Shown in pieces: positions 6,740 to 54,723 of a stretch of DNA of 64,000 nucleotides (position 1 is its first letter; each line of letters starts with the position of its first letter). The translations under genes and the position numbers were made by a program. The notes under the pieces are model-generated. The model was not told the origin of the DNA, ran no database searches, and worked only from the letters and a program-made list of their open reading frames with translations. The stretch comes from Nitzschia sp. DOCU1 (lineage: Eukaryota; Bacillariophyta; Bacillariophyceae; Bacillariales; Bacillariaceae): positions 3,968,001-4,032,000 of the forward strand of contig OX595985.1 of the NCBI GenBank assembly GCA_951394045.1, written 5' to 3'.

Positions 6740-6751
6740 AGTTTTAAAACT
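6740..6751 (-). other. Palindromic 12-mer at the primer-binding position, element A
   Basis: AGTTTTAAAACT, a perfect palindrome, lies 1 nt inside the 5' LTR where a tRNA-complementary TGG site is normally found. The same motif is present in elements B and D. Confidence 0.8.
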
Positions 6752-6752
6752 G

Positions 6753-7368
6753 TGCCCTATCCCGGGGGTGACGATAATGAAATAAAGACGATGATAATTG
6801 TGAGACCTATGTTACTTCTATTAGATTGACTTCCAACAACAAGATTGACGAGAGGAAAGATTTTTGTCTTTCAAATATTTGCAACCGGTTGTTCATTTTG
6901 TGAATGACTTTCCCCGCGCGAAAATAACGCGCATATATTTATTTGTTCGAATATGTCGATTTGCCGATAGCGTCGCCTGTAACTAGGCGTCCCAAGTCTT
7001 GGCTAGCTACGACTCCTCGATACCCATGGTCTGAATTATTTCCTTGTCCTAATTACATCTCCTCTATTAGGCGATGAATATTTACTACTTAGATTGTAGG
7101 CATGCCGTTGGCAAGGGACTCTATGGGTTAGTCGAATGTCACTATGCAATATACTAAAGAGCGCGTTCATGTGCAACGCTGCGACTCCTTGGATCGCTGC
7201 GCCGGTGCGCCGTCCGCGACGACGTCACCGTTCGTTCGTGTCCGTGTCCGTTAGCCGTCTGTAGGTCGTCCGTCCGGCGGACGACTCCGTTCATCCACGA
7301 CTACTAAGACTACCAGCGTGTAGGACTAATATGACTAAACTATTTATGCGTCTCTGTGGGGTATGGCA
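6753..7368 (-). repeat. Full-length 616-bp family-1 LTR (5' LTR of A)
   Basis: Complete LTR, TGCCATACCCC to GGGATAGGGCA when read on the minus strand. On its right it abuts the polypurine tract and integrase end of another minus-strand copy, so it is also positioned as that copy's 3' LTR. It is nearly identical in sequence and length to the 5' LTR of element B. Confidence 0.9.
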
Positions 7369-7393
7369 CCCGCTTCCCTATGGAACAGTTCGG

Positions 7394-7966
7394 TTACTTT
7401 GACCAGTACGGTGTAATCCGTCTAATGTTAACTCGTTGCTGTACGGGGCCATTTTGAATGGTCACGGTTCCATTGTCATGTACATTCACTACGTTGTAGG
7501 GTCCCGTACGCGGACTCCGTACTTTCGGTAATTTTCCGGGTGTAGTGAGCAGCACGCGATCGCCGACGTTGTACTGATGATGGATTCTCTTGGAATTCTC
7601 TCGTTTGTTAGAAGCATCAATGATCTTCTGCTTGCGTAGCCTTATACGCGCCCAGTCTGCCACAAACTGTACTGGGAGAAACATATCCCTGCCGAATACT
7701 AACTGTGCTGGGGATGCCTGTAGGGTAGTGTGGTGTGTACTCCTAATCGCGAAGGCGGCGGCAGTGAGGAATTCATCCCATGGATTTGATTCGTCGAGCT
7801 CACGTTCCTCTAGTTCGAAATTACGTAAGGCGTTTCCCAATACTTGGTGTACATGCTCTATTACGCCGTTACTTTGGGGATTGTATTCTGTCGAGGGCTT
7901 CCTCTCCAGGCCATAGTTCTTACATAAGTCATTGAAGTAGCGTTTGAATGTTGACCCATTATCTAC
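7394..7966 (-). pseudogene. Family-1 integrase C-terminal half, remnant
   Basis: Minus-strand integrase from the second catalytic aspartate region ([11 protein letters not shown]) through NGVIEHVH and the C-terminal tail. The upstream part is cut off at about 7966, where a plus-strand LTR begins abruptly. It could be the distal end of element E, which shares orientation and lacks its own pol. However, this piece is much closer to A and B than E's gag is, so the link is uncertain. Confidence 0.8.
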
Positions 7967-8510
7967 ATGAACACAGTCGTCCGCCGGACGGACGACGTAC
8001 AGACGGCTAACGGACACGGACACGAACGAACGGTGACGTCGTCGCTGACGGCGCACCGACGCAACGATCAAAGAAGTCGTAGCGTTACACATGGAAGCGC
8101 TCTGTAGTATATTGCATAGTAACATTCGACTAACCCATAGAGTCCCTTGCCAACGGCATGCCTACAATCTAAGTAGTAAATATTCATCGCCTAATAGAGG
8201 AGATGTATTTAGAGCAAGGAAATAATTCAGACCATGGGTGACGAGGAGTCGTAGCTAGCCAAGAATAGGGACGCCTAGTTAGAAGGCGACGATACAAGGA
8301 ATCGACATATCCGAATGAATAAAGTATATGCGCGTTATTTACGCGCGGGGAAAGACGTTCACAAAATGAACGATCGGTCGCGAATATTTGAAAGACGAAA
8401 ATCTTTCGTCTCGTCAATCTTGTTGTTGGAATGAATGCAAATAGATGTAACATAGGTCTCACAATTACAATTGTCTTCTACTTTTATTTCGTCACCCCCG
8501 GGATAGGGCA
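7966..8510 (+). repeat. 5' LTR of element D, 5'-truncated
   Basis: Family-1 LTR lacking about its first 70 bp. It begins at ATGAACACAGTCG beside foreign integrase sequence and ends in GGGATAGGGCA. Confidence 0.85.
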
Positions 8511-8511
8511 C

Positions 8512-52799: not shown

Positions 52800-53196
52800 A
52801 AAAAAAACCCAAGGCCTATTTGTTAACCGATTAGATGTTGGAAAAATGAGCTACCTAGTTTATGCTAGTCCAGCCCCCTGAATCAACAACGGACGGGTGG
52901 CACCCGCCCCGCCCGCTCATCAGACATACATACCCGGCGCGGGGCACCCGCGAAAGAGCGCGCGCCACTCGTGCTCGTGTTGCTTAGCACCTCCGAAACG
53001 ACATGGAGATAAGCCCCGCACGAAAAACCCCTCAACCCAGGGAAGGGAACAACAGAGGGGGGAAGTTACGAAGCCGACACACCCGGCTCAACCGGCGTAA
53101 TGCAATTTGGGAAAGACAAGGCCCTATGCCGGGAATCGAACCCGGCGCCTCTCCACAGTTAGCTTACCATGTGCCAACTAAACTACACTGGACCTC
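52800..53196 (-). mobile_element. tRNA-derived SINE with LINE1-like 3' tail
   Basis: About 397-bp minus-strand SINE inserted in an LTR with about 15-bp target duplications (GTTGTTGGAATGAAA at 53197-53211 and, with one extra A, at 52784-52799). The head is tRNA-like: an A-box-like TAGTTTAGTTGG and an exact B box GGTTCGATTCC in a perfect T-arm (GCCGGG/CCCGGC). The anticodon loop may read CTGTGGA (His-like), but its stem is poor. The 3' end reads CGGTTAACAAATAGGCCTTG then G and about 12 T, matching LINE1's terminus. This points to LINE1 as its mobilising partner. Confidence 0.85.
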
Positions 53197-53267
53197 GTTG
53201 TTGGAATGAAAGCTAATAGATGTAACATAGGTCTCACAATTACAATTGTCTTCTACTTTTATTTCGT
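53197..53267 (+). repeat. Family-1 3' LTR, right part
   Basis: Continuation of the LTR after the SINE, ending at TATTTCGT. The terminal CACCCCCGGGATAGGGCA is missing. Confidence 0.82.
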
Positions 53268-53501
53268 GCTGTGCTTCTGCCAGACATGCATCGAGAGAGC
53301 TGAAACTTCGAGATTTCGTTAGTTTAACGAAATTGCTGCTTGCGTGTGATTTTTGCAAATTTTGTGTTACGCTCGTACGCAATCACTATTGTAAAATGAT
53401 TCCGTCTGTTGGACATCGTCCCTACTGATAAAACTAGTGTAATCGTTCAATTTACCACTATTGTTATTATTGTATTCACACGTAGTCACCGGCTCACACC
53501 G
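53268..53501. other. Unassigned, probably 3' remnant of the family-3 element
   Basis: Contains a palindromic TTTCGTTAGTTTAACGAAA-like motif (53312-53331) and AT-rich sequence. No protease or pol motif is found, so pol of the family-3 element is deleted or outside this copy. Confidence 0.45.
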
Positions 53502-54689
53502 TCAATCCATTTTGACCTCGCTGTCGTCGCTGACACTGAGTTTGTCGAAATCAGGAAGATCATTGAGATCATCCATGTCGTAATTAAAGTTATCCATCGA
53601 GGGAGGATCTTCGGCCTTGCGCTTCTTTGCAGATTGTTTGACTGCATTGTCGACCATCGACTTGATGTAGGCGTGAAGCTCGCCTGTTTTCTTCTTCTTT
53701 TTGTCATTGCCGTCTTTATCGCTGCGGCGCCAGGTTTTGTTTTCAAAGCGGGCCTTTTTGAAACGACCGCCAACATTAGAATGGGCAGCCGCCATCTTCT
53801 TCGCTTGGTCCTTTAAAATAAGGCAATCATGGGTAGCATGGGTATTGTTAGCGCCATGATAAAGACATTCGTACTTGGCCTTACCGTCGGTTCCCGCTCT
53901 CGGGTCTCCGCGCTTCCTCTTCGAGGGGTTGTCGTCATTCGACTTGCCAGAATGTTTTTCTGCCTTCTTGTTGAGGGCATCGTTGATCTCTTCAGTGGCT
54001 TCCAAGCATTCGCAGAAGTCCACGAAGTCCTTAATGGTGCCGTCCACCGGCTCGAATCCTTGGAGGATCATCTCCTTACGCCACTTGGCGGGGATGCCAA
54101 ACTCGCAATTCTCGATGATCTCATCGTCCGGAATTTTGTTTTTCTCACCATTCACGTCGAATAGGGCGAGATACTTGTTCAGCTCCTTAAACCGGGCCCC
54201 ATACGCCTTCATGGTCATCATCGGGGGCTTTCGGCAAATCCGACGCATATAGCGTTTTTGAAGTCTCACCGCGCGTTTGGGGAGAACATAGGCTGTAACC
54301 GCGTGCAAACATGCTTGGGAATTAGCAGGGGTTTCGTCCCCAAGTTCCGAGGCCTTCGCGTTGAATGCCGCCAAAACCTGGCCTTTCAGGAGATTTCGGG
54401 TTAATGCATATTGTTGAGGACCGGTGGTCATGTCCTGTCCCGCGATCACATCCTTAAGTCCGATGAGGAAAAGGAACCACTCTTCGGGTGTTCCGTCGGT
54501 GAAATGCGGTTGCTTGACGCGTCGCGTCAATGATTTCTTATCCTTTGGATCAATACGCAAGTCATATTGACTATACACGACACCATCTTTGAGCTCTTTT
54601 GGCTCGGGCCTTTCAATGCTGATCGGCACTGACTTGAAGCCCTGCTTCTTGGCAGCGGCCTTCTTTGAAATGCTGTAGGTTGTCCTCAT
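53502..54689 (-). CDS. Gag of a third gypsy family (element H)
   Basis: About 396 codons from MRTTYSISKKAAAK. Upstream codons are open to 54722 but run into the primer site, so this first Met is preferred. Capsid spans roughly 30-240 (HFTDGTPEEWFLFLIG and YALTRNLLKGQVLAAF). A basic linker and a knuckle CLYHGANNTHATHDC (C-x2-H-x5-H-x4-C) follow, then a lysine-rich stretch and acidic end. It has the same knuckle type as element C but little other similarity. The frame is intact, and no pol follows downstream. Confidence 0.82.
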   Translation of the reverse strand: MRTTYSISKKAAAKKQGFKSVPISIERPEPKELKDGVVYSQYDLRIDPKDKKSLTRRVKQPHFTDGTPEEWFLFLIGLKDVIAGQDMTTGPQQYALTRNLLKGQVLAAFNAKASELGDETPANSQACLHAVTAYVLPKRAVRLQKRYMRRICRKPPMMTMKAYGARFKELNKYLALFDVNGEKNKIPDDEIIENCEFGIPAKWRKEMILQGFEPVDGTIKDFVDFCECLEATEEINDALNKKAEKHSGKSNDDNPSKRKRGDPRAGTDGKAKYECLYHGANNTHATHDCLILKDQAKKMAAAHSNVGGRFKKARFENKTWRRSDKDGNDKKKKKTGELHAYIKSMVDNAVKQSAKKRKAEDPPSMDNFNYDMDDLNDLPDFDKLSVSDDSEVKMD

Positions 54690-54711
54690 CTTGCTCACGC
54701 GTGTAACGTGG

Positions 54712-54723
54712 AGTGTTAACACT
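54712..54723 (-). other. Palindromic 12-mer at the primer-binding position, element H
   Basis: AGTGTTAACACT, a perfect palindrome, 1 nt from the LTR boundary at 54725, the same spacing as in family 1. Confidence 0.8.

Follow-up and report, generated by a model that had tools for sequence, protein, structure and literature searches.

In a 64,000-nucleotide stretch of the genome of the diatom Nitzschia sp. DOCU1 (GenBank assembly GCA_951394045.1, contig OX595985.1, positions 3,968,001 to 4,032,000; hereafter the window), long terminal repeat (LTR) retrotransposons of the Ty3 superfamily carry a perfect 12-bp palindrome directly inside the 5' LTR. This is the position of the primer-binding site (PBS), at which LTR elements and retroviruses as a rule use a host tRNA as primer. 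The feature is real and is present in every assessable member of the clade sampled. We propose that in this Ty3 clade the tRNA PBS has been replaced by the palindrome, that its self-complementarity is kept, and that it may serve reciprocal priming between two element RNAs, a reading to which we assign a probability of roughly 0.4.

Palindromy is kept while the sequence varies

The comparison covered 13 element kinds, of which nine come from this genome and four from eukaryote-like contigs found in bacterial metagenome-assembled genome (MAG) records. In each of them a perfect 12-bp palindrome stands next to the LTR, at offset 1 in 11 kinds and offset 0 in two, and the palindromes comprise 11 distinct sequences. 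Only one further palindrome was found within 200 nt of the 13 junctions. Family 1 of the window (AGTTTTAAAACT) and its relative L040 (AGTCAATTGACT), which share 65% identity in pol, keep the flanks of the site, with GGGATAGGGCAC before it and CCCG after it; within it, changes at three left-half positions are matched by changes at the three right-half positions that pair with them. The terminal-repeat retrotransposon in miniature (TRIM) has LTR ends like those of family 1 and a palindrome of its own. Together, the 13 of 13 kinds, the 11 sequences and the paired changes between family 1 and L040 uphold what an earlier, sequence-only reading of the window had suggested, and strongly support the view that palindromy itself is selected while the sequence varies.

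The window holds 21 twelve-bp palindromes against about 15.6 expected (a run of N excluded), so palindromes are not rare in general in this DNA; seven of the 21 sit at LTR junctions. General abundance as the sole reason for the palindromes at the junctions was rejected on the basis of the offset profile. For each independent family, a 12-bp palindrome would arise by chance at either of two offsets with a probability of about 1 in 2048. Because the elements are related, such probabilities overstate the case when multiplied, and the turnover of the sequence with palindromy retained carries more weight.

LTR boundaries and census in the genome

LTR ends were located by comparing the two LTRs of a pair, of which one leads into the palindrome and the other into flanking DNA; they are supported because the latter copy runs into unrelated DNA. 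The elements have direct TG..CA LTRs and short target duplications, as Ty3/gypsy elements do: a clean duplication of 4-5 bp was seen in seven of nine full elements (L017, L020, L023, L024, L025, L029, and L036), and none at the boundaries used in the other two (L021 and L026).

In the window and 20 Ty3 stretches, 82 matches to LTR-end words were found, of which 57 are true LTR ends. A perfect palindrome follows 27 of these (in the window and 16 of the 20 stretches), an imperfect one follows a single end, and in two cases (L027 and L033) the site is broken after CAGTGT. At the remaining 27, L022 among them, the DNA that follows does not look like the interior of any known element, which fits 3' LTRs, solo LTRs, and rearranged copies. 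Three stretches added later (L123-L125), picked for having the element kind that scored highest against a distant outgroup Ty3 protein, all have the perfect palindrome TCTGAATTCAGA. Palindromy as first read in the window is hence found in other elements too, in 16 of 20 stretches, three of three later ones, and four of four assessable close-clade contigs (see below).

Further families in this genome are represented by L024/L025/L036, with palindrome CGTGAATTCACG, and by L017/L018, with TTTGATATCAAA; a small (mini) element in L033 has AATGATATCATT. Genome-wide, the pattern GCACAGTNNNNNNACTCC, with its six central letters free, gave 160 matches compared to 4 for a reversed control pattern, and the matches listed (about 100 of the 160) are all perfect palindromes, of two kinds. 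When up to 3 mismatches are allowed, the family 1 junction occurs 172 times in the genome; for the TRIM junction the count is 21, of which 20 are exact.

The small LTR element at L033:7131-7847 has LTRs of about 200 bp that, by eye, hold a tRNA-like gene (TAGCGCAGTGG..GGGTTCAAGACC). It is reminiscent of Cassandra TRIMs, which bear 5S. A word YAYAATT is common to element kinds f1, f2, f3a, f5, L040, L041, and L044, at 44-61 nt before the junction (94 in L044); it was not found near the LTR end in f3b, f4, the TRIM, the mini element, or L042. This word is possibly the transcription start, in which case the repeat (R) and unique 5' (U5) regions and the strong-stop DNA would be very short.

Comparison with host tRNAs and Copia controls

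A TGG start is absent from every palindromic site (f6 judged by eye), as the first reading of the window had it. Forty-seven host tRNAs, nuclear, plastid, and mitochondrial, were collected, a set from which the nuclear initiator tRNA is absent. Two contigs of the 52-Mb genome, C62 (41.5 kb) and C63 (125 kb), are tRNA-dense and resemble mitochondrial and plastid genomes. The best matches of psaB on C63 are the photosystem I chains 6l4u, 6ly5, 8zeh, and 8xls, which belong to diatom complexes (896-911 bits, with 831 for the next match); with the organelle-like contigs this speaks for a diatom host and against an oomycete. Against the 47 tRNAs, the longest complement of 11 palindromic sites was 5-8 nt, a length equalled by 10 to 60 of 60 shuffles; the site of f6, compared without shuffles, gave 7 nt. 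The sites of two Copia elements of the same host (L037 and L038) also found no match in this set, at 6 and 7 nt.

The Copia match was missed because the nuclear initiator tRNA is not among the 47. Against 32 nt of the one initiator tRNA gene found (G000 C16:752843-752874), the L037 and L038 sites match over 14 and 16 nt, the site CGCTTCCTCTGCGC being complementary to an inner part of the tRNA (GCGCAGAGGAAGCG..). The 12 palindromic sites compared with the same 32 nt match over 3-5 nt only. The two Copia elements thus share with the palindromic ones the host and LTRs ending in CA but have an initiator-tRNA site, and there is no palindrome within 200 nt. No LTR pair was obtained for a third Copia element, L039. 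The word CACGCTTCCTCTGCGC, with up to one mismatch, lies at 95 places in the genome, namely, the gene and 94 others including L037 and L038, and only two of the 95 were seen adjoining an LTR.

The match to the initiator fragment indicates that another superfamily in this host probably does use tRNA-based priming. The Copia primer should be a cut initiator tRNA ending near nucleotide 27-29 (an estimate), unlike the longer half-tRNA used by Drosophila copia. As regards the palindromic elements, the comparison with host tRNAs, fragments included, agrees with the first reading of the window: within the incomplete tRNA set, no site complementary to a host tRNA was found next to the 5' LTR, with no match above shuffles and 3-5 nt to the initiator fragment.

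Computed pairing of the element RNAs

In 12 elements tested, the complement of the site within the LTR did not exceed 6 nt, the LTR starts of L040, L042, L044, and TRIM copy 2 being set roughly for this test. With transcription starts unmapped, no PBS complementary to the 5' end of the mRNA, as in Tf1, was seen in these 12. A second arm of the type described for GalEa (see below) was sought in the next 60 nt, and nothing above shuffles was found in 11 of 12 elements; in the mini element, a match of 8 nt was seen (P = 0.02, as one of 12 tests). Computed RNA homodimer energies for 12 elements range from -7.2 to -17.0 kcal/mol.

Relatives in other records and phylogenetic position

A Ty3 alignment used to scan genome records of bacteria and archaea picked out 12 eukaryote-like contigs (L040-L051). 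These Ty3 retrotransposons in bacterial genome or MAG records are presumably contaminants, and several of them resemble circularly joined elements with one LTR. The junction is present in four of the five close-clade contigs, and all four have the palindrome: that of L040 given above, TATCAATTGATA in L041 and L044, and TTATAATTATAA in L042. The fifth, L043, is cut before its 5' end.

The other seven contigs are distant (26-36% identity). L045 and L046, nearly the same Ty3 element with about 27% identity to family 1, have Ty3 pol as here but a canonical TGG site, TGGTATCAGAGC, after ..ACAC. Twelve-bp palindromes without an assigned position relative to an LTR occur in L047, L048, L049, and L051. 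The sites of L047-L051 are unplaced, so for these the label "no palindrome" on the trees is an assumption, and the site is a measured one only in L045/L046.

In trees of the reverse transcriptase (RT)-RNase H region, a branch with 100/100 support sets the palindromic elements apart, with 10 of 10 on the same side of it in a first tree and 13 of 13 in a second from which L049 and L050 were excluded (long branch, identical rows). The trees are rooted at the midpoint. Because of this rooting, the long separating branch, and the few measured outgroup sites, a single origin is compatible with the data but not proven.

A collection of viral contigs gave no pattern match in a protein scan and no relatives among 26 stretches matched in an alignment scan. 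A pattern scan of the same collection hit 31 contigs; none of the 31 matches has a palindromic core, and they look like chance. A 121-base query had no match in a plasmid collection.

Retroelements of the window

All seven palindromes first noted in the window were confirmed as exact, each equal to its own reverse complement, and they lie 1 nt (family 1, family 3, and the TRIM) or 0 nt (family 2) from the terminal CA of the LTR. Family 1 is represented by three copies with AGTTTTAAAACT. In copy A the palindrome is at the PBS position, 6740..6751 (minus strand), separated by 1 nt (6752) from the 5' LTR at 6753..7368 (minus; TGCCATACC..GGATAGGGCA). In copy B it is at 8512..8523 (plus), the LTR ending at 8510. 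Copy C has a 616-bp 5' LTR (20095..20710, plus), the palindrome at 20712..20723 (plus), and open reading frames (ORFs) at 20735..25163 (plus) encoding RT, RNase H, and integrase in Ty3 order.

The family 2 palindrome, CTTTGATCAAAG, is at 30805..30816 (minus), at offset 0 from the 5' LTR (30817..31336, minus; TGCAGTAGG..CCTAGTGCA). The ORFs at 26235..30778 (minus) encode RT and RNase H and then integrase, and the 3' LTR (25687..26206, minus), 99.6% identical to the 5' LTR, is followed by flanking DNA without the palindrome. Families 1 and 2 thus have the Ty3/gypsy (Metaviridae) pol order, with RT and RNase H before integrase, which is also that of yeast Ty3. Family 3 has AGTGTTAACACT at 54712..54723 (minus), 1 nt after its 5' LTR (54725..55198, minus); other copies are in L019-L021 and L029, and family 3 copies outside the window have the same kind of pol as families 1 and 2.

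The TRIM has 61-bp LTRs and an interior of about 420 bp, judged to be noncoding from the ORF list only. Copy 1 has its 5' LTR at 13609..13669 (minus), with the family-1-like ends TGCCATA..ATAGGGCA, the palindrome AGTGAATTCACT at 13596..13607 (minus), and the 3' LTR at 13127..13187 (minus); its target duplication, CGCCG, was read directly. In copy 2 the same palindrome is at 34630..34641 (minus), after an LTR that is incomplete at its start, and the 3' LTR is at 34184..34244 (minus). A tRNA-like B box (GGTTCGAATCC) lies at 13500-13510 (minus) in a tRNA-like stretch of the TRIM interior; ARAGORN called no tRNA in the window.

An old relative of family 1 at 33173..33184 (minus) has the imperfect site AGATTTAAAACT, with one of six pairs mismatched. 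The word recurs at 13778..13789 (minus) without an adjoining LTR, and both places continue with the shared letters CCCGTTTAG, which suggests an old family 1 subfamily with one mismatched pair. Lastly, an 1,863-amino-acid ORF at 14159-19750 (minus), with endonuclease and RT domains (the latter below the Pfam cutoff), is likely a non-LTR retrotransposon.

Relation to known systems

The sequence-only reading knew of no retrotransposon group with this feature. This did not stand, since passages of Donnart et al. (2017, PMC5445492) describe a 10-bp palindrome that includes the last A of the LTR, at the place of the PBS, in the fungal Ty1/Copia elements GalEa. There, a Conserved Hairpin Site comprises a second arm, CHSeq2, 12-41 bp downstream, with which a hairpin can form, and the palindrome is nearly fixed, one of two words with an A/T center being found in 85% of families. 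The authors suspect a role in priming and state in the same passages that no described model fits; a paper on bivalve TRIMs refers to the GalEa work (PMC6934838). The elements described here resemble GalEa in having no tRNA PBS and a perfect palindrome at the PBS position (13 of 13, of 12 bp rather than 10). The A/T center is also common to the two main GalEa words, but the T at the fourth position after the LTR (see below) is not. GalEa elements are Copia elements of fungi, whereas those studied here belong to Ty3, with its pol order and domains rather than a GalEa-clade Copia pol, and come from an alga and from contigs of unknown eukaryotes. Moreover, the palindrome here is 12 bp long, has 11 sequences, and, aside from the 8-nt match of the mini element, lacks a second arm.

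Tf1-type elements, which were reportedly shown to be self-primed by Lin and Levin in 1997, share with the reading proposed here the Ty3 superfamily, the absence of a tRNA, and a primer from the element's own RNA. As outlined in part of PMC5445492, the Tf1 PBS is not palindromic and base-pairs with the very start of the mRNA that carries it; no such LTR complement was found here in the 12 elements. Yeast Ty3, whose primer is the initiator tRNA, also carries a short palindrome, which serves dimerization and lies away from the PBS, according to sections of PMC11381356.

A term search of the main text of a paper on diatom LTR elements (PMC2806351) found palindromes unmentioned and "PBS" used once, for a buffer. 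No description of such a palindrome in Ty3 elements was found in open-licence full texts, subscription papers and repeat libraries being outside the search. What is new here is the palindrome at the tRNA-site position in Ty3, longer, variable in sequence, and without a second arm.

Proposed priming mechanism and alternatives

In the mechanism that we propose, two packaged element RNAs would pair through the palindrome, and one of them would be cut immediately downstream of it. The enzyme could be the RNase H of the element, as in Tf1, whose mRNA is said to be cut to make its primer. The new 3' end would then occupy on the partner RNA the place that a tRNA 3' end would take, and its extension through U5 and R would give the minus-strand strong-stop DNA. 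The palindrome would be primer and PBS at once. The TRIM probably uses the family 1 machinery because it shares the LTR ends; a palindrome of its own would be expected if each RNA primes its own kind but not if one host RNA serves all. It is possible, and we suggest it tentatively from the comparison of sequences, that a deep algal Ty3 clade primes reciprocally in an RNA homodimer, with the twin RNA as primer and no host tRNA, and that GalEa is an independent invention in Copia.

Several observations weigh against reciprocal priming. The tRNA set is incomplete, and the test with 47 tRNAs is of limited power, having missed the Copia match too. The claim that the sequence differs between families holds in that there are 11 sequences, but the sequence is not free: all 13 element kinds have T at the fourth position after the LTR, and every one of the 11 distinct palindromes is centered on AT or TA. 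This indicates some sequence constraint that pure pairing does not need and that perhaps comes from the RNA cut or from a protein. The old family 1 relative has an imperfect palindrome (AGATTTAAAACT) at two places. Leaders folded singly form a 4-bp hairpin within the palindrome in 7 of 13 cases, and the mean unpaired probability is lower in the palindrome than in the rest in 11 of 13, so that intramolecular pairing may compete; exposure of the palindrome in a loop, which was also considered, is not supported by the latter result. Finally, the primer RNA would be complementary to its own cDNA, and the two could snap back.

The main rival, which we consider rather unlikely, is that the palindrome is a dimer initiation or packaging signal beside the LTR and that the primer is something else, such as a non-tRNA host RNA. 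The computed dimer energies are favorable, and retroelements commonly dimerize via short palindromes near the RNA 5' end, of 6 nt in yeast Ty3 (PMC11381356, in part). Against it, the palindrome occupies the PBS position, 0-1 nt from the LTR, in 13 of 13 kinds, and by eye no other PBS-like word common to the families follows the palindrome. The dimer site of HIV lies away from the PBS. So does that of yeast Ty3, as stated in the same portion of PMC11381356. Hairpin self-priming, in which the palindrome folds within one RNA or pairs elsewhere in it, as in Tf1 or as proposed for GalEa, has in its favor the 4-bp stem in 7 of 13 leaders and the hairpin priming used by some chromoviruses (PMC3601003, in part). 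We regard it as improbable: with transcription starts unmapped, the LTRs of 12 elements hold no site complement longer than 6 nt, 11 of 12 lack a second arm in the 60 nt that follow (the exception being the mini element, with 8 nt and P = 0.02), and a pairing partner elsewhere would need no palindromy.

Binding of the palindrome, in DNA or RNA, by a protein dimer (of integrase, Gag, or a host factor) would account for the conserved T and the A/T center, but with a sequence-specific protein a single sequence rather than eleven would be expected, and we deem this explanation a little more doubtful still. By far the least probable is that the sites match host tRNA fragments or that the palindromes are due to chance. 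Internal-tRNA priming is likely for Copia in this genome and the host tRNAs were collected only in part, yet the best complements of 11 sites to the 47 tRNAs, 5-8 nt, were reached by 10-60 of 60 shuffles, and chance would have to act against odds of about 1 in 2048 in each independent family.

Significance

Tools that rely on tRNA matches may call these elements PBS-less. The turnover of the site and its paired changes provide comparative data on the selected trait, self-complementarity, and the elements offer a system for a direct test of an RNA as both primer and template. If reciprocal priming is correct, the sequence of the site can turn over, and TRIM-like parasites can change the word as long as it remains palindromic. 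Few exceptions to tRNA priming are known, namely, Tf1-type elements and the fungal GalEa, for which no mechanism is known. Finding a palindrome at this position in a second superfamily turns GalEa from a curiosity into one instance of a recurrent solution.

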